Both the position numbers and the translations under genes were made by a program. A DNA stretch of 64,000 nt, taken from Fidelibacterota bacterium. GTDB lineage: Bacteria > Fidelibacterota > Fidelibacteria > Fidelibacterales > Fidelibacteraceae. Positions within the stretch are counted from its first letter, which is position 1; every line of letters begins with the position of its first letter. Shown in pieces: positions 23,397 through 35,718 of this stretch. Below the pieces are notes generated by a model. The model made no database searches and had not been told where the DNA came from. It saw only the letters and a list, made by a program, of their open reading frames with translations. The DNA is taken from assembly GCA_030156395.1 (NCBI GenBank), contig JASGMP010000001.1, forward strand, positions 1 to 64,000. The letters run 5' to 3'.

Positions 23397-25862
23397 ATGA
23401 TCAAGCAGATACATAAAGTAGCACTAATTTATAAAGAAGAGACCATTTTATATCAGGAGCTGATGGGGCGAATCGGAGCTGTCTCACAACGGATTGCAAC
23501 ACGTAATCCGGAAAAGGTTGTAATTTTTATGGAAAACCGCCCGGAGTGGGTCTATGCGTTTTACGCCGCCTGGATGCACGGAAGTATTGCCGTCCCTGTG
23601 GATTACCTGTCCACCGCTGATGAAGTCCGGTATATCCTTGAGGATTGTGAACCGGAAGTCCTTTTTTACAGCCAGGAAACCCGGGATACAGTCCAAAAGG
23701 CAGTTAAGGGGTTGAAAAACAGTCCGGAACTCATTCACGCAGACGACATCGGGACGGAAGCCCTGCCAGAGATGCAGGCATTTCCGGAACAAGAGAAAGA
23801 TAAAGTGGCCATGCTGATTTATACATCAGGCACCACGGGATCTCCAAAGGGTGTGATGCTGACCTTTGATAATGTCCTGGCCAATATCGAAAGTGTTGCC
23901 GTGGGTGTTCCCATTTATAAAGAAGAGGAATCCATCCTCGTTCTATTACCCCTTCATCACACTTTTCCTCTTATGGGAACCCTGATTGCTCCTCTTTACT
24001 CGGGAATGACCTGTGTTTTTAGTCCCTCCTTAAACAGCGAGGATCTTCTGGGAACCCTACAACATAACCGGGTCACCATGATCCTGGGAGTTCCCCGTTT
24101 TTATTCGCTGTTACACAAAGGTATTATGACCAAAATCAACAGCAGCGGTGTGGCAAAAAAGATCTTTGCGCTGGCAAAAAAGGTCCAGTCTCCCCGCCTT
24201 TCCAAAAAGCTGTTCAAAAAAGTTCACGAAAATTTTGGCGGGAACATCAAGTATCTTATCAGCGGTGGAGCTGCCCTGGATAAGACTATTGATGAAGATT
24301 TTCGGACCCTGGGTTTTGAAATTCTAAGTGGTTACGGGATGACGGAATGCGGCCCTCTCATCAGTTTTCCCCATCCCGGGAAATCCAAACCGGGAACGAC
24401 AGGTTTTGTGACCAGCACCCTGGAATTAAAGATCACGGATGACAGTGAGATCATAGTGCGTGGCAGGAATGTGATGAAAGGGTACTATAAGAATCCGGAA
24501 GCAACGGCGGCAGTTATCCGTGACGGATGGTTGCACACCGGCGATATGGGACATGTGGACAAAAAAGGGTATTTGCATATTACCGGCAGGTTAAAAGAGA
24601 TTATCGTTTTGCCCAACGGAAAAAACATTAACCCCGAAGATATCGAAAAAAAGATTTTGGAGGTATCCGATCTGATCAAGGATGTGGGAGTTTTCATGGC
24701 GGATGACAAGTTGCAGGCCGTGATATATCCTGACTTTCAGCGTCTAAAGGATGTCAACGCCGTCAACATTGAAGAGCAGATCCGCTGGGAAGCCATTGAC
24801 CTATATAACAGGAATGCTTCGCCGTCCAAGCGGATCAGCGGATTCACTATCATTCAGGAAGAAATCCCCCGTACCCGTCTGGGAAAAATCAAACGCTTTG
24901 TCCTGGAATCCATGGCCAAAGCCCGGAAAACTTTGGAGAAAAAACCAACAGACCAGGAGCCTGATTTTCGCGAATACCAGCTTATCAAAGCGTTTTTGAT
25001 GCAGCAGAAAGAACGACGGGATATTTATCCCGGAGACCATCTTGAGCTGGATCTGGGAATGGATTCGCTGGACAAGGTCAGCCTGCAGTCATGGATAAAA
25101 AACACCTTCGGTGTGGATCTTCAGGAAGACCATCTGATTCATCTTCCAACCGTACAACAACTTTCGGATTACATCCGGGAAAAACGGACCCGGCTCAATG
25201 CCCAGGCGACGGACTGGGGACATATCCTAAAGGAAAAAGTGGATTTAACCCTTCCCAAAATCGGACCTTCTCATAAAATCATCCGAAATTCGGCAAATTT
25301 GCTTTTTAAATTCTATTTTCACCTTCGTTCTTCCGGAATTGAAAATCTGCCCGAGTCCCCCTTTATTCTAGCCCCCAATCACCAGAGTTTTCTGGATGGG
25401 ATGTTTGTCAGTCTTTTTCTCTCTGATAATCTTTCACGAAAAACCTATTTTTATGCCACGGAAAAACATGTCCGAAAGAACTGGGTCAAGAAACTGGCAG
25501 ATACAAACAATGTCATCGTGGTGGATATCAACAAGGATCTGAAAGGATCAATTCAGAAAATGGCGGAAGTCATCCGTCAGGGAAATAATATCATCATCTT
25601 TCCTGAAGGAGCCCGGACACGGGACGGGAAACTCATGGAATTCAAGAAAACCTTTGCCATCATTGCATGTGAAATGGGAGTTCCTGTCGTTCCGGTAGCA
25701 ATCAGCGGAGCCTATGAAGCCTTTCCTACCGGTACGAAAATTCCAAAATTGTTTAAAGAAATCCACGTGGATTTTCTCACACCGGTCTATCCCGAAAATT
25801 ATGGATATGATGAACTGACCCAAGCAGTGAAAGAGAAAATTGCCGAAGCTATAAAATTTTGA
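23397..25862 (+). CDS. Acyl-AMP ligase / acyl carrier / PlsC acyltransferase fusion
   Basis: An 821-residue three-domain protein. The AMP-forming acyl ligase (about 1-520) has YTSGTTGSPKG, GYGMTECGP, HTGDMG, GRLKEIIVLPNGKNI and a C-terminal Lys motif RLGKIKR. A carrier domain (about 530-600) has GMDSLDK with the attachable Ser557. A PlsC-type lysophospholipid acyltransferase (about 630-821) has NHQSFLD (His662, Asp667) and FPEGARTRDG. A logical role is to activate a fatty acid, hold it on the built-in carrier and transfer it to a lysolipid. E. coli Aas has acyltransferase and ligase in the opposite order and no carrier domain. Start ATG follows AAAGGAG. Confidence 0.92.
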   Translation: MIKQIHKVALIYKEETILYQELMGRIGAVSQRIATRNPEKVVIFMENRPEWVYAFYAAWMHGSIAVPVDYLSTADEVRYILEDCEPEVLFYSQETRDTVQKAVKGLKNSPELIHADDIGTEALPEMQAFPEQEKDKVAMLIYTSGTTGSPKGVMLTFDNVLANIESVAVGVPIYKEEESILVLLPLHHTFPLMGTLIAPLYSGMTCVFSPSLNSEDLLGTLQHNRVTMILGVPRFYSLLHKGIMTKINSSGVAKKIFALAKKVQSPRLSKKLFKKVHENFGGNIKYLISGGAALDKTIDEDFRTLGFEILSGYGMTECGPLISFPHPGKSKPGTTGFVTSTLELKITDDSEIIVRGRNVMKGYYKNPEATAAVIRDGWLHTGDMGHVDKKGYLHITGRLKEIIVLPNGKNINPEDIEKKILEVSDLIKDVGVFMADDKLQAVIYPDFQRLKDVNAVNIEEQIRWEAIDLYNRNASPSKRISGFTIIQEEIPRTRLGKIKRFVLESMAKARKTLEKKPTDQEPDFREYQLIKAFLMQQKERRDIYPGDHLELDLGMDSLDKVSLQSWIKNTFGVDLQEDHLIHLPTVQQLSDYIREKRTRLNAQATDWGHILKEKVDLTLPKIGPSHKIIRNSANLLFKFYFHLRSSGIENLPESPFILAPNHQSFLDGMFVSLFLSDNLSRKTYFYATEKHVRKNWVKKLADTNNVIVVDINKDLKGSIQKMAEVIRQGNNIIIFPEGARTRDGKLMEFKKTFAIIACEMGVPVVPVAISGAYEAFPTGTKIPKLFKEIHVDFLTPVYPENYGYDELTQAVKEKIAEAIKF

Positions 25863-25921: not shown

Positions 25922-26110
25922 TTTATAGAATAGAATCTTGATAGACAGAGTCATTGCAATCAATAGCAGAAAAATCTCCAATATTCCGGTTTGCACAAGC
26001 CCAAAAACCGAAAAAGTAACCGTTTCCCAAATAAGGATGAGGAAAATCGCTTCGGTGTAGTTACTAAGAGCACGGTGATGCATCCAGCCACCAGGCCAGA
26101 GGTGATCAGA
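25922..26110 (-). pseudogene. Possible remnant of a small integral membrane protein gene
   Basis: A minus-strand frame without a suitable start reads HHRALSNYTEAIFLILIW, then VFGLVQTGILEIFLLLIAM and LSIKILFYKR before a stop, a strongly hydrophobic C-terminal-like segment. A neighbouring frame also carries a hydrophobic stretch (LLITSGLVAG), which would suit a frameshifted or truncated gene. A distant resemblance to the C-terminus of YhhQ-type queuosine precursor transporters is possible but weak. It may be a decayed gene end left after rearrangement. Confidence 0.3.
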
Positions 26111-26265
26111 AGTATTTTATGAAAATCCTATAATTTTATCTTGTTCTCCCCTGACATAAGGTAAAATTACCGTGTGCGACACGTTATATGGAAATCACAG
26201 ATATCCGGAAACTGAAACATCTGCAGGTAACATTTTTATAAATATTTTTTTAATATATTAAAGTA

Positions 26266-26294
26266 TTGATTTTGTCAGTTTGAAAAACTATATT
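26266..26294 (+). promoter_or_regulatory. Predicted promoter of the HemC-like gene
   Basis: TTGATT and TATATT are separated by 17 bases, a good sigma-70-like pair. It would give a leader of roughly 115-120 bases before the ATG at 26420. Confidence 0.55.
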
Positions 26295-26419: not shown

Positions 26420-27325
26420 ATGGATGAATTAATCATTGGGACTCGTGGTGACCGTTTATCCATCTGGCAGGCGAATCACATCAAGCAGCTATTAAAGAAT
26501 CATTATCCGGACATGAATATCCGAATGAAGATTATTAAGACCCGTGGAGATCAGTTAAGTGAATATCCTTTATCCAATCTTGATCGCAGGGGACTGTTTA
26601 CAGCTGAACTTGAGCAGCAGCTATTGAATGATCAGATTCAGATGGCGGTACACAACGCACTGAACATCGATATTTCCCTTGCGCCGGGACTTACCCTGGC
26701 GGGTTATCCCAAACGTCAGTCCGCTGAAGAAGCTTTTGTCAGCTACAAATGGGCTGAACTGGAAGAGCTCCCCCCTTCACCGGTTATTGCCACAAGCAAT
26801 ATCCTTCGCCGTATTCAATTCCATAAAATGTATCCCAAGACTCGTTTTGTCGGGTTGCAGGGACATTTCAACTCCCGGATTTTCAAATTAAAAAACCAGA
26901 AATGGGATGGATTGATTACGGAATATGTAAACGTTGAACGGACATCCGTTCAGAAAGTTCATGTAATTCCCTTTGATGTGGAATCTTTCGTTCCTTCAAT
27001 TGGACAGGGAGCCATTGGGGTTGAAATCTCCAGCTACAATGACGAAATCCGCGAGTTACTGGAGCCGATACTCGATGAAGAGACCAATGCCTGCGTAAAC
27101 TTAGAGCGAAAAATTTACCGGGATTTATTCCGTTTGAATGACCGGCTGATTATCGGAGCCAATATCCGCATGGAAGATAAAACCATGAAAATAGTTGTTT
27201 TTGTGGCTTCTCCTGAAGGGAAACCATCCCTGAAAAAAACAAAAAAGGGGAAACCTGAAGAAGCAGATAAACTGATCACTGCTGTGGTGGACACATTTAA
27301 AGCGGAAAATGTTGCAGACTGGTGA
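26420..27325 (+). CDS. HemC-like protein lacking catalytic and cofactor residues
   Basis: The 301-residue protein aligns along its length with hydroxymethylbilane synthase (porphobilinogen deaminase): IGTRGDRLSIWQA, KTRGD, RRGLFTAELE, MAVHN, TSNILRRIQ, LQGHFNSR and SIGQGAIGVE. However, the catalytic Lys-Asp (VHSMKDVP in E. coli, Asp84) is replaced by Leu81-Asn82 (VHNALNID), and the GGCQ segment whose Cys carries the dipyrromethane cofactor is RLNDR; the only Cys (NACVNLE) is elsewhere. It should not be able to make hydroxymethylbilane. No other heme gene is nearby. AAAAGGAG supports ATG 26420 over an upstream TTG. It has its own promoter and terminator. Confidence 0.85.
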   Translation: MDELIIGTRGDRLSIWQANHIKQLLKNHYPDMNIRMKIIKTRGDQLSEYPLSNLDRRGLFTAELEQQLLNDQIQMAVHNALNIDISLAPGLTLAGYPKRQSAEEAFVSYKWAELEELPPSPVIATSNILRRIQFHKMYPKTRFVGLQGHFNSRIFKLKNQKWDGLITEYVNVERTSVQKVHVIPFDVESFVPSIGQGAIGVEISSYNDEIRELLEPILDEETNACVNLERKIYRDLFRLNDRLIIGANIRMEDKTMKIVVFVASPEGKPSLKKTKKGKPEEADKLITAVVDTFKAENVADW

Positions 27326-27352
27326 ATCAAATAAAATATTTAAATACATAAG

Positions 27353-27380
27353 AAAAAGGGCTTCATGTGAAGCCCTTTTT
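27353..27380. terminator. Bidirectional terminator between HemC-like and barrel genes
   Basis: A perfect GGGCTTCA/TGAAGCCC stem with a two-base core is flanked by A5 on the left and T5 on the right, so it can terminate both converging transcripts. Confidence 0.92.
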
Positions 27381-27403
27381 CTTGGTCATGACTAGTACAA
27401 ACA

Positions 27404-32469: not shown

Positions 32470-33201
32470 TTAGATCCCTTTTTTGGAAAACTTTGGGTTA
32501 AGTTGTCGGGCAATAATCTGCCTCTTGAGATTGGCAATATTCGCTGTGGGATCCACATTTTTCGGACACACCGTCTGGCAGTTAAAAAGGGTATGACATC
32601 GAAAAACACCATGTTCATCACACACCAGGGCCAGGCGTTGTTCATCAGCCTTATCCCGTGAATCCATCAGAAAACGGTTTGCCTTCGCCAGCGCAGCCGG
32701 TCCAAGATATTCATCATCAAAGCCGTTGACGGCGCAGGAAGCATAACAGGCACCACAGAGAATACAATCAACAATATGGTCAAGATACGCGCGTTCGTCC
32801 TGCGTCTGAATCCGTTCTGCCCCCTCATCGGGATTACCGGGGATCAGATAAGGTTTAATGGCCTTGAGCTTTTCAAAAAAGGGTGTCATATCTACAACCA
32901 GGTCCCGAATAATATCCATATGCGCCATGGGACGAATGGTGATGGAACCCCTCAAATGATTCACCTGTGTTTCACAGGCGAGGCGGTACTTTCCATTGAT
33001 ATGCATGGCACAGGATCCACAAATTCCTTCCCGGCAGGATGAACGATAAGCCAGGGATCCATCCAAATTTTCCTGAATATAGTTCAGGGCTTGCAAAACA
33101 GTCATACCCGGACGGCAGGGAACTTTGAAAGTATCAAAACGGTGTCTTTTATCTGTTTCGGGATTAAAACGGAATATGTTAAATGTCTTTGTATCAGCCA
33201 T
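32470..33201 (-). CDS. sdhB: Succinate dehydrogenase/fumarate reductase iron-sulfur subunit
   Basis: The 243-residue electron-transfer subunit carries the [2Fe-2S] ligands in SSCREGICGSC and a later Cys (YRLACE), the [4Fe-4S] motif CILCGACYASC, and the [3Fe-4S] motif in CHTLFNCQTVCPK. It passes electrons between SdhA and the membrane anchor. GGAG directly precedes ATG 33207 but is ideally six bases from ATG 33201, which is chosen. It follows sdhA with a 20-bp gap. Confidence 0.97.
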   Translation of the reverse strand: MADTKTFNIFRFNPETDKRHRFDTFKVPCRPGMTVLQALNYIQENLDGSLAYRSSCREGICGSCAMHINGKYRLACETQVNHLRGSITIRPMAHMDIIRDLVVDMTPFFEKLKAIKPYLIPGNPDEGAERIQTQDERAYLDHIVDCILCGACYASCAVNGFDDEYLGPAALAKANRFLMDSRDKADEQRLALVCDEHGVFRCHTLFNCQTVCPKNVDPTANIANLKRQIIARQLNPKFSKKGI

Positions 33202-33221
33202 ACTCATCTCCGGAAGATCTT

Positions 33222-34949
33222 TTAATAATGACGTTTTTTTGCTTTATGCAGGGACAGGTCCACGGAAGAATAGCTGAGGTGGATCGTCCCATCTTTCCAC
33301 CTGGCAACGGTATGTTTCATCCAGTTTTTATCATCCCGCATGGGATAGTCTGTTCGGAACTGTGCGCCACGGCTTTCCTGACGGTTGATAGCACCACGAA
33401 GAATCACTTCCGCCAGATCCAGGCTTCCCTTAAGCTGTATAGCCCATAACAAATCAAAGTTCGCAATCCGTCCATTACTATTCAACCCGATATGCTCATA
33501 TCTTTCCTTGAGCTCATTTACCTTTTCCAACGAGTCATTCATTGTTCGGGCTTCCCGGAAAATACCGGCCCCTGTATCCATAGCATTCCCCAGTTCGTGC
33601 TTAATGGCGGAATGGTTTTCTTTCCCTTTGGATTTCAGCAGACGGGTGATTTTATCTTCTTCCTCTTTGAGGATTTGGTTCAAAAAACTCACGGGGACAT
33701 CTGTTCCCCCCCCATCTTTAAAATAGGCGGAAGCATACTCGCCGGCAATTTTTCCAAAAACAACTGTTTCAAGGAGTGAATTCCCTCCCAGTCGGTTGGA
33801 TCCATGGACACTTACACAAGCACATTCACCGGCAGCAAAAAATCCCTTTATTTTTGATTCCGTATTCAGATTTACATCCAGCCCTCCCATAGTATAATGC
33901 TGACCTGGTGCAACAGGAATGGGCTGGTAGATGGGATCCACACCGGCAAAATGGATGGCATGCATCCGAATTCCGGGAAGCCTTTCGAGAATTTTCTTTT
34001 TTCCCAGGTGACGGAGATCCAGGTGGATATATTTTCCTTCCACACCCCGGCCGGCTAAAATTTCCCGTTGCATGTTCCGGGCGACAATATCCCGAGGAGC
34101 CATCTCCATAGCCTTTGCCGAATCTTCATAATTTGCCAGAAACCGCTCTTGTCTGTTATTCAGGAGGAAACCGCCCTCGCCCCGTGCACCTTCTGTAATA
34201 AGCACATTATTCGTGTAGAGTTCGGTAGGATGGAACTGAATAAATTCCATATCTTTCAGGGGAACTCCTTCATAAAAGGGGACGCACATTCCCCAGCCGG
34301 TATTGATGTACGCGTTGCTGGTCCGGCCGAAAACCCTGCCTGAACCGCCTGTCGCCCAAATCACCGCCTGGCCGGTAAAAATTTCAAGTTCACCTGTATT
34401 GATATTCAAGGCAATCACACCCTTTGCGGTGTCCTTATGCACGATCAAACGGGTTACAAACCATTCATCAAAAATCTGCATATCAGCCCGTTCACTCGCG
34501 GCTTCAAATTTCAAGGCCTGTTCATAAAGGGTATGAAGCAACACATGGCCGGTTTTATCCGTTGCGTAACAGGTACGGGGAAAACCAGCACCTCCAAAAG
34601 GTCTTTGGGCGATACGCCCGTCTTCCGTCCGGCTGAAAGGGGCTCCCCAGTGTTCCAACTCGTATATGCGATCAATACCTTCTGTGGTCATTTTCAACAC
34701 AGCTTTCTGATCGGCAAGATAATCACTGCCTTTAATCGTGTCGAAAGCATGGAGTTCGGGACTGTCAAACTGACCACGGGGATGGTTCCTCAGGGCAGCG
34801 TTGATTCCTCCCTGGGCAGCCACGCTATGGGAGCGGACGGGGTGAACTTTCGTGACGACGGCGACTTTCACATTGTGACGATTCAATTCCAATGCTGCCC
34901 GCAATCCCGCTAATCCGGCTCCAACCACAATCACATCCGATGTAACCAT
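33222..34949 (-). CDS. sdhA: Succinate dehydrogenase/fumarate reductase flavoprotein subunit
   Basis: The 575-residue catalytic subunit binds FAD covalently. It has the dinucleotide loop GAGLAGLRAAL, the flavinylated His41 in SHSVAAQGG, TGGSGRVF, GARGEGGFL, HTMGGLDVN and GSNRLGGNSLLE. It interconverts succinate and fumarate at the inner membrane face. Sequence alone does not decide between succinate oxidation and fumarate reduction. GGAGG upstream supports ATG 34949. It is third in a four-gene operon. Confidence 0.98.
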   Translation of the reverse strand: MVTSDVIVVGAGLAGLRAALELNRHNVKVAVVTKVHPVRSHSVAAQGGINAALRNHPRGQFDSPELHAFDTIKGSDYLADQKAVLKMTTEGIDRIYELEHWGAPFSRTEDGRIAQRPFGGAGFPRTCYATDKTGHVLLHTLYEQALKFEAASERADMQIFDEWFVTRLIVHKDTAKGVIALNINTGELEIFTGQAVIWATGGSGRVFGRTSNAYINTGWGMCVPFYEGVPLKDMEFIQFHPTELYTNNVLITEGARGEGGFLLNNRQERFLANYEDSAKAMEMAPRDIVARNMQREILAGRGVEGKYIHLDLRHLGKKKILERLPGIRMHAIHFAGVDPIYQPIPVAPGQHYTMGGLDVNLNTESKIKGFFAAGECACVSVHGSNRLGGNSLLETVVFGKIAGEYASAYFKDGGGTDVPVSFLNQILKEEEDKITRLLKSKGKENHSAIKHELGNAMDTGAGIFREARTMNDSLEKVNELKERYEHIGLNSNGRIANFDLLWAIQLKGSLDLAEVILRGAINRQESRGAQFRTDYPMRDDKNWMKHTVARWKDGTIHLSYSSVDLSLHKAKKRHY

Positions 34950-34954
34950 ATAAC

Positions 34955-35353
34955 TCAGCTTCCTCCAAACAGGATTTTCAATTCGGGAATAAAGTGTAAT
35001 AAGGAGGCCAATGCAATCATACCACTTAAAATAAAGACCCAGAGAATAAGCACTTTTTGTTTATGGGAGAAACGAAGAAAATCCGTCACCGTAATACGAA
35101 TTCCATTGAACATATGCCATAAAACTGCTAAAAGCAGAAAATATTCCAGTACATGTCCGACCGGTGTGTTGTATCCTTTCATCATCTGGTTAAAAGAATC
35201 ACCACCTCCCAGGGAGTGTCCCACACTGTAAATATGCAAAACAATGTACAAAACAAGAGCCAGTCCCGTAATCCGGTGAAAGACAAAGGCAAGCATCCCC
35301 CAGTTGAAATTCAGCATCCACTCTCTTAAAAAGCCTGGTCTCCGGTTGGACAT
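34955..35353 (-). CDS. sdhC: Succinate dehydrogenase cytochrome b membrane subunit
   Basis: A 132-residue integral membrane protein with three spans. FHRITGLALVLYIVLHI holds the family HRxTG signature and heme-ligand candidates, and LWHMFNGIRI carries another conserved His. It anchors SdhAB and binds quinone and heme b. Its ATG overlaps the upstream stop as TGATG, and sdhA follows five bases after its own stop. The sdhC/sdhD naming of the two anchors is provisional. Confidence 0.88.
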   Translation of the reverse strand: MSNRRPGFLREWMLNFNWGMLAFVFHRITGLALVLYIVLHIYSVGHSLGGGDSFNQMMKGYNTPVGHVLEYFLLLAVLWHMFNGIRITVTDFLRFSHKQKVLILWVFILSGMIALASLLHFIPELKILFGGS

Positions 35354-35718
35354 CAGACACCTCCCTGCCGCGTAAAGGGTAAGAGGGCCAAAATGCCATA
35401 TATTACAAGGATGGTACCTCCAAAAAAGAGTACCCAGGCAATGATTTTTTTTATGACAGGCCGGGGATTGTAATCGCTGATCACGTTGTACAAACCGTTA
35501 AAAGCATGGTAGATGACGGCTATCAACAGTATCACATCAAAAAAGACCCATCCGGGTGATAAGAGTCTGTTCTGTACTTTTTCAAATGTCACCGGTCTTT
35601 CAATGGCAAAATGCATTGCCCAGAAATGAACAAAGAGTCCCACTACCAGAATCATGGCGGTAATCCTCTGCATATACCAGTGAAAAGCCGGGCTGATGTT
35701 TCGAATGAGTTTCCCCAC
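35353..35718 (-). CDS. sdhD: Succinate dehydrogenase second membrane anchor
   Basis: A 121-residue protein with three membrane spans, first in the operon. WYMQRITAMILV and HFWAMHF resemble the anchor-subunit quinone/heme region, and IYHAFNGLYNV parallels the conserved HxxNG of its partner. The start is GTG at 35718 with GAGGGG about eight bases upstream. The gap before dsbD contains the promoter region, but no clear hexamer pair was found. Confidence 0.83.
   Translation of the reverse strand: MGKLIRNISPAFHWYMQRITAMILVVGLFVHFWAMHFAIERPVTFEKVQNRLLSPGWVFFDVILLIAVIYHAFNGLYNVISDYNPRPVIKKIIAWVLFFGGTILVIYGILALLPFTRQGGV

Follow-up and report, generated by a model that had tools for sequence, protein, structure and literature searches.

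The closest described system to the gene reported here is porphobilinogen deaminase (HemC, EC 2.5.1.61), of which several inactive laboratory variants exist. In the Escherichia coli enzyme the D84A and D84N substitutions abolish activity, as do R131L/R132L, which affect cofactor binding (PMC3945110); D82A and D82N inactivate the Bacillus megaterium enzyme (PMC8561815). The B. megaterium D82N variant (PDB 5ov6) carries the same replacement of the catalytic Asp by Asn as our protein but was made in the laboratory in an enzyme that is normal in other respects and has its cofactor Cys, whereas the change described here occurs in nature, is fixed and comes with many more. More distantly, two cleft-forming domains resemble the type II periplasmic-binding-protein fold (TM 0.35–0.45), found in solute-binding proteins and LysR/OxyR sensor domains, which bind ligands without performing chemistry. 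At about 10% identity, and with a HemC-derived third domain retained, our protein is not a member of that group, and unlike LysR/OxyR and solute-binding proteins it has no DNA-binding domain and no obvious signal peptide. The literature searched, consisting of titles and abstracts with most subscription journals outside its range, holds no natural HemC pseudoenzyme, priority being unproved, and its titles and abstracts hold nothing relevant on heme loss in Marinimicrobia.

The gene lies in a stretch of 64,000 nucleotides from a Fidelibacterota bacterium (the window; features in Table 1). Our overall best reading, to which we assign a probability of roughly 0.6, is that it encodes a HemC-derived pseudoenzyme whose old cleft likely holds a different ligand. 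The heme genes searched for have been lost, the catalytic residues have been lost and selection is strong, and the protein has therefore probably been put to a new use.

Table 1. Positions of the HemC-like gene, its altered active-site codons and surrounding features in the window.
Feature	Position	Strand	Basis or remark
HemC-derived gene, very probably of a pseudoenzyme	26420..27325	+	301 aa plus stop; ATG at 26420, stop at 27325; profile and sequence matches, alignments, model
Codons 81–83, Leu-Asn-Ile in place of catalytic Lys83-Asp84-Val85 (E. coli numbers)	26660..26668	+	Alignments
Codons 129–130, Leu-Arg in place of cofactor-binding Arg131-Arg132	26804..26809	+	Alignment; R131L mutant literature (PMC3945110)
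Codon 241, Asp in place of cofactor-bearing Cys242	27140..27142	+	Alignments
Conserved promoter-proximal motif AATATATTAAA-N3-TTGATTTT (= AATATATTAAANNNTTGATTTT)	26252..26273	+	Holds -35-like TTGATT (26266)
15-bp hairpin with A/T-rich flanks	27350..27383		Likely shared terminator of convergent genes
821-aa fusion: AMP-binding enzyme, carrier-protein domain, acyltransferase	23397..25862	+	
Broken small membrane-protein gene, presumably DUF454-like	25922..26148	-	Stops and deletion(s)
sdhDCAB	32470..35718	-	Two histidine-bearing Sdh_cyt anchors

Homology to HemC and state of the active site

The preliminary description had proposed homology to porphobilinogen deaminase from end to end, and this was confirmed together with the limits of the frame and its start and stop. 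The window protein matches Pfam PF01379 (E = 5.6e-48), NCBIfam TIGR00212 hemC (203.6 bits over residues 4–289, cut-off 164) and the E. coli HMBS chains (6.5e-37, residues 4–288). A genome-wide search returned no normal hemC, the degenerate gene being the only HemC homologue found. We compared 19 genomes of one family, namely the window's genus (g1, 6 genomes), g2 (10 genomes) and g3 (3 genomes), along with a member of a second family within the same order (G001). Named relatives of the protein belong to the Neomarinimicrobiota (Marinimicrobia; NCBI phylum Fidelibacterota), among them bacterium 46_43, UBA6817 and TCS52. The degenerate protein occurs in 6/6 g1 and 3/3 g3 genomes, and its presence in nine genomes rules out an artefact of a single assembly.

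Alignment places E. coli K83-D84 on Leu81-Asn82 and C242 on Asp241, bearing out the earlier claim that the Lys-Asp catalytic pair is replaced and the cofactor Cys missing. It is sound at both sites, with D84 in a gap-free block adjoining the invariant A-V-H and the conserved Gly247 standing five residues beyond C242. The segments MAVHN, TSN..RR.Q and SIGQGAIGVE are retained as described, and R11, Q19, H80, R132, R155, R176, Q198 and G199 are kept. The losses first named (K83, D84 and C242) stand, but the list was too short, with S13, S81, S129, R131, R149, A170 and G241 lost too. In a comparison with 28 canonical HemCs (21 from the phylum's other families, 6 from contig scans and that of E. 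coli), positions that show 100% conservation in the canonical set but are altered in g1 include S13 (Asp), S81 (Asn), K83 (Leu), D84 (Asn), S129 (Asn), R131 (Leu or Ile; Leu in the window protein), R149 (Gln, as in the window protein), A170 (Glu) and C242 (Asp or Pro). The absence of S13, S81, K83, D84, S129, R131, R149 and C242 sets the window protein apart from HemC; among these, S13, S81, K83, S129, R131 and R149 belong to the Arg, Lys and Ser residues that hold the cofactor and the carboxylates of the chain.

D84 and C242 are gone in all nine members (6/6 g1 genomes and 3/3 g3), and the lesion is thus no sequencing error. The g3 proteins have lost D84 (to His, Tyr or Asn), C242 (to Asn), S13, S81, S129 and R149; they additionally lack R11, D46, K59 and R132, and two of the three lack R155, while R131 is kept throughout and K83 in two of three. 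As a control, very diverged 512-residue HemC fusions from elsewhere in the phylum still read HSWKD, SPRR, RGNIxTRLKK and GGGC, so the losses seen here exceed what sequence divergence alone gives. These fusions (L084, L085, L086 and L087, one of them truncated) come from other Neomarinimicrobiota families, have a canonical HemC active site, mostly lie near hemB or hemE, and their C-terminal part is probably HemD.

The catalytic Asp and the cofactor Cys have not simply shifted to nearby sequence positions in the alignment. The sole Cys of the protein, C225, was considered as a relocated cofactor Cys and rejected; it lies ahead of the cofactor turn in helix 220–239, and several canonical enzymes likewise have Cys at that position. 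Asp84 in the protein's own numbering, two residues past Asn82, is acidic throughout g1 and Ser in g3, and could conceivably take the role of E. coli Asp84 within g1. The window protein combines the equivalents of D84N and R131L, and its cofactor turn has no Cys. Judged by sequence, a protein without C242 would lack the known means of holding the dipyrromethane cofactor, and loss of catalysis appears near certain; established biochemistry leads us to expect no porphobilinogen deaminase activity.

Heme pathway, distribution and gene neighbourhood

HemA (glutamyl-tRNA reductase family), HemB, HemD and ferrochelatase were not found in any of the 19 family genomes, among them the single-contig G002 (95% complete). 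The enzymes that would give HemC its substrate and use its product (HemB and HemD) are hence missing across the family, and in this lack of a pathway the window protein again differs from HemC. G001, from the second family, has all four proteins, with hemA, hemC, hemD and hemE adjacent. HemB is present in 41/44 other phylum genomes with a HemC match and in 0/9 of those with the degenerate protein, a comparison between related genomes to which no probability is attached.

These findings bear on whether the protein might be an active porphobilinogen deaminase that has relocated its catalytic residues and works on imported porphobilinogen. The fold, R176, Q19 and Q198 are kept, as are R11, R132 and R155 in g1, the g1 proteins carry an Asp two residues from the lost one, and the NCBIfam hemC cut-off is passed. 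We nevertheless give this proposal hardly any credence: no HemD or ferrochelatase was found that could process the product, the cofactor site has no Cys, in characterised enzymes activity is lost with D84N and cofactor binding is impaired with R131L (PMC3945110, PMC8561815), and the charge of the g1 cleft has fallen to a third.

No HemC-like protein was found in the ten g2 genomes, where the stretch past PrpD continues into other genes with no HemC-like frame; the gene is thus dispensable in the family. In the tree a branch with support 100/99 separates the g1 and g3 members from the others, a placement to be read with caution given the long branches. S81N and S129N are common to both groups, as is the gene order PrpD, outer-membrane-like protein and, convergent with these, the HemC-like gene; PrpD is missing in G018 and reduced in G019. 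The shared branch, the shared substitutions and the gene order point to one origin of the g1 and g3 proteins, and porphobilinogen deaminase would have been retained as a pseudoenzyme in two genera after pathway loss in this Neomarinimicrobiota family. In G019 PrpD is reduced to a short frame matching N- and C-terminal pieces only (L079:6451-6726), next to an intact HemC-like gene. A viral source was rejected, the single relative on a viral contig carrying canonical residues. That relative is a hemC with a canonical active site on a 399.8-kb contig classed as viral (L023:5001-5867, IMGVR_UViG_3300036770_003657), which may come from a large virus with a hemC of its own or may have been mis-sorted.

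The HemC-like gene is convergent with the genes for the outer-membrane-like protein and PrpD, the only neighbours that are conserved, and its upstream neighbour varies by genus, an AMP-binding gene in one case and DnaK in the other. An operon or shared regulon as a clue to function was rejected on these grounds and on the uniqueness of the upstream motif (see below).

The sdhC/sdhD anchors, 8 kb away in a genome with none of the heme-synthesis genes searched for, raise the idea that the protein carries a tetrapyrrole such as heme to the membrane anchors of succinate dehydrogenase, and the ancestral cleft did accommodate a linear tetrapyrrole. The distributions are opposite, however, g2 having anchors without the HemC-like protein and g3 the HemC-like protein without anchors, and we regard a link to succinate dehydrogenase heme as very improbable. 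The sdhDCAB complex itself may use imported heme or be heme-free.

Selection and transcription signals

Purifying selection on the HemC-like gene is strong. Between G000 (the window's genome) and G002 its dN/dS is 0.036, compared with 0.039 for the nearby sdhA, 0.005 for GroEL, 0.060 for PrpD, 0.087 for the outer-membrane-like protein and 0.135 for an M16 peptidase. Among g1 pairs with unsaturated dS (0.45–0.72) the values are 0.036–0.085, and they are higher among g3 pairs (0.14–0.22). All nine frames are open, with no stops; on this and on the low dN/dS the gene is not a pseudogene, in agreement with its first appraisal, and a dN/dS close to that of sdhA despite the lost enzyme chemistry upholds the suggestion that it is selected for something else. 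Loss of essential residues (D84N, R131L and no C242) thus goes together with purifying selection (dN/dS 0.036), and we consider the pseudoenzyme part of our reading very probable.

The gene could instead be a functionless relic decaying slowly after loss of the heme pathway, as the missing pathway genes tested, its complete loss from g2 and the weaker constraint in g3 would allow. Against this, the g1 ratios are as low as that of sdhA at considerable dS, the nine frames are intact, and a truly dead neighbour shows what decay looks like here: the small membrane-protein frame (25.92–26.15 kb), which we take to be DUF454-like, is already broken in the window and in G005, and intact in G002 (L080:10045-10455) and G004. 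A relic is strongly disfavoured.

The upstream motif overlaps a promoter-like site, TTGATT-17-TATATT. In the five g1 genomes whose sequence covers this stretch it is free of mismatches ahead of the HemC-like gene, and no other mismatch-free copy was found in the six g1 genomes. Perfect in five genomes and found nowhere else, it supports a gene-specific promoter, as the preliminary description had supposed, and gives no clue to a regulon. The terminator proposed there corresponds to the downstream hairpin, with the qualification that it is shared with the convergent gene. A search for RNA regulators nearby gave two matches far below gathering scores, which were taken as chance.

Predicted fold, substrate cleft and possible new role

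The AF2 model of the window protein (pLDDT 91.8) superposes on 1PDA with TM 0.89 and rmsd 2.7, so that the three-domain fold is predicted to be intact, a likeness to HemC alongside the homology over its whole length. The fold is also predicted well for g3. Next after HemC itself in the fold searches come solute-binding proteins and LysR/OxyR sensor domains.

Cleft contacts were defined as the 30 positions in Table 1 of a simulation paper (PMC3945110). Canonical HemCs are at least 90% conserved at 20/30 of these positions versus 23/269 others. Within g1, contact positions are invariant at 25/30 compared with 153/269 (57%) elsewhere (p = 0.005, from six related sequences), and the cleft bears a new residue signature that is nearly fixed in all six members. 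Within g3 the figures are 16/30 and 181/269 (67%), with no preferential conservation of the cleft. Over 27 canonical enzymes the net charge of the contact positions is 6.5 ± 0.6; it is +2 in all g1 proteins (hence +2 versus about +6.5 for the window protein and HemC) and 0 to +4 in g3. Conservation of the g1 cleft with a new sequence and lower charge argues that this cleft retains a role, one that does not involve the polycarboxylate pyrrole chain.

The earlier suggestion of small-molecule binding is accordingly favoured by the renewed conservation in g1, but the same conservation is not found in g3, and the suggestion is still inference. With no preferential cleft conservation, higher dN/dS and different changes in g3, a single cleft ligand shared by both groups is unsupported, and g3 seems to have taken a separate path. 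The g3 data, in which the cleft has lost preferential conservation though the fold is still predicted well, and the loss of different basic residues in g1 and g3 suit another explanation, that the fold now serves as a scaffold for protein–protein interaction or regulation and its cleft no longer binds a small molecule. The g1 cleft, more conserved than the rest of the protein and with its nearly fixed new signature in 6/6 members, speaks against such a scaffold, which we consider unlikely, if of some weight.

Under the preferred reading, a HemC-derived pseudoenzyme with a new ligand, the g1 protein would be a non-catalytic cytoplasmic binding protein, whose old substrate cleft would take up a smaller or less anionic ligand as the two type-II-binding-protein-like domains close around it; the protein may act as a carrier, a sequestering protein or a sensor. 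By analogy with the type II binding-protein fold we infer such binding in the interdomain cleft of g1 with moderate confidence, the ligand part of the reading being a little better than an even bet. HemC assembles its own cofactor and joins pyrroles into chains; that its scaffold became, after pathway loss, a carrier or sensor devoted to a ligand and free of catalysis, in what is apparently the first natural family of HemC pseudoenzymes, may be true or false with equal chance.

There is a practical warning for annotation. The curated hemC model, an equivalog for hydroxymethylbilane synthase, scores the window protein above its cut-off and likewise accepts two g3 relatives in which both defining active-site residues are missing, so that bacteria without the rest of the tested pathway would be annotated with hydroxymethylbilane synthase. 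The protein is also a natural combination of substitutions earlier made in the laboratory (D84N, R131L), and it provides a testable example of how an enzyme may outlive its pathway by switching job.
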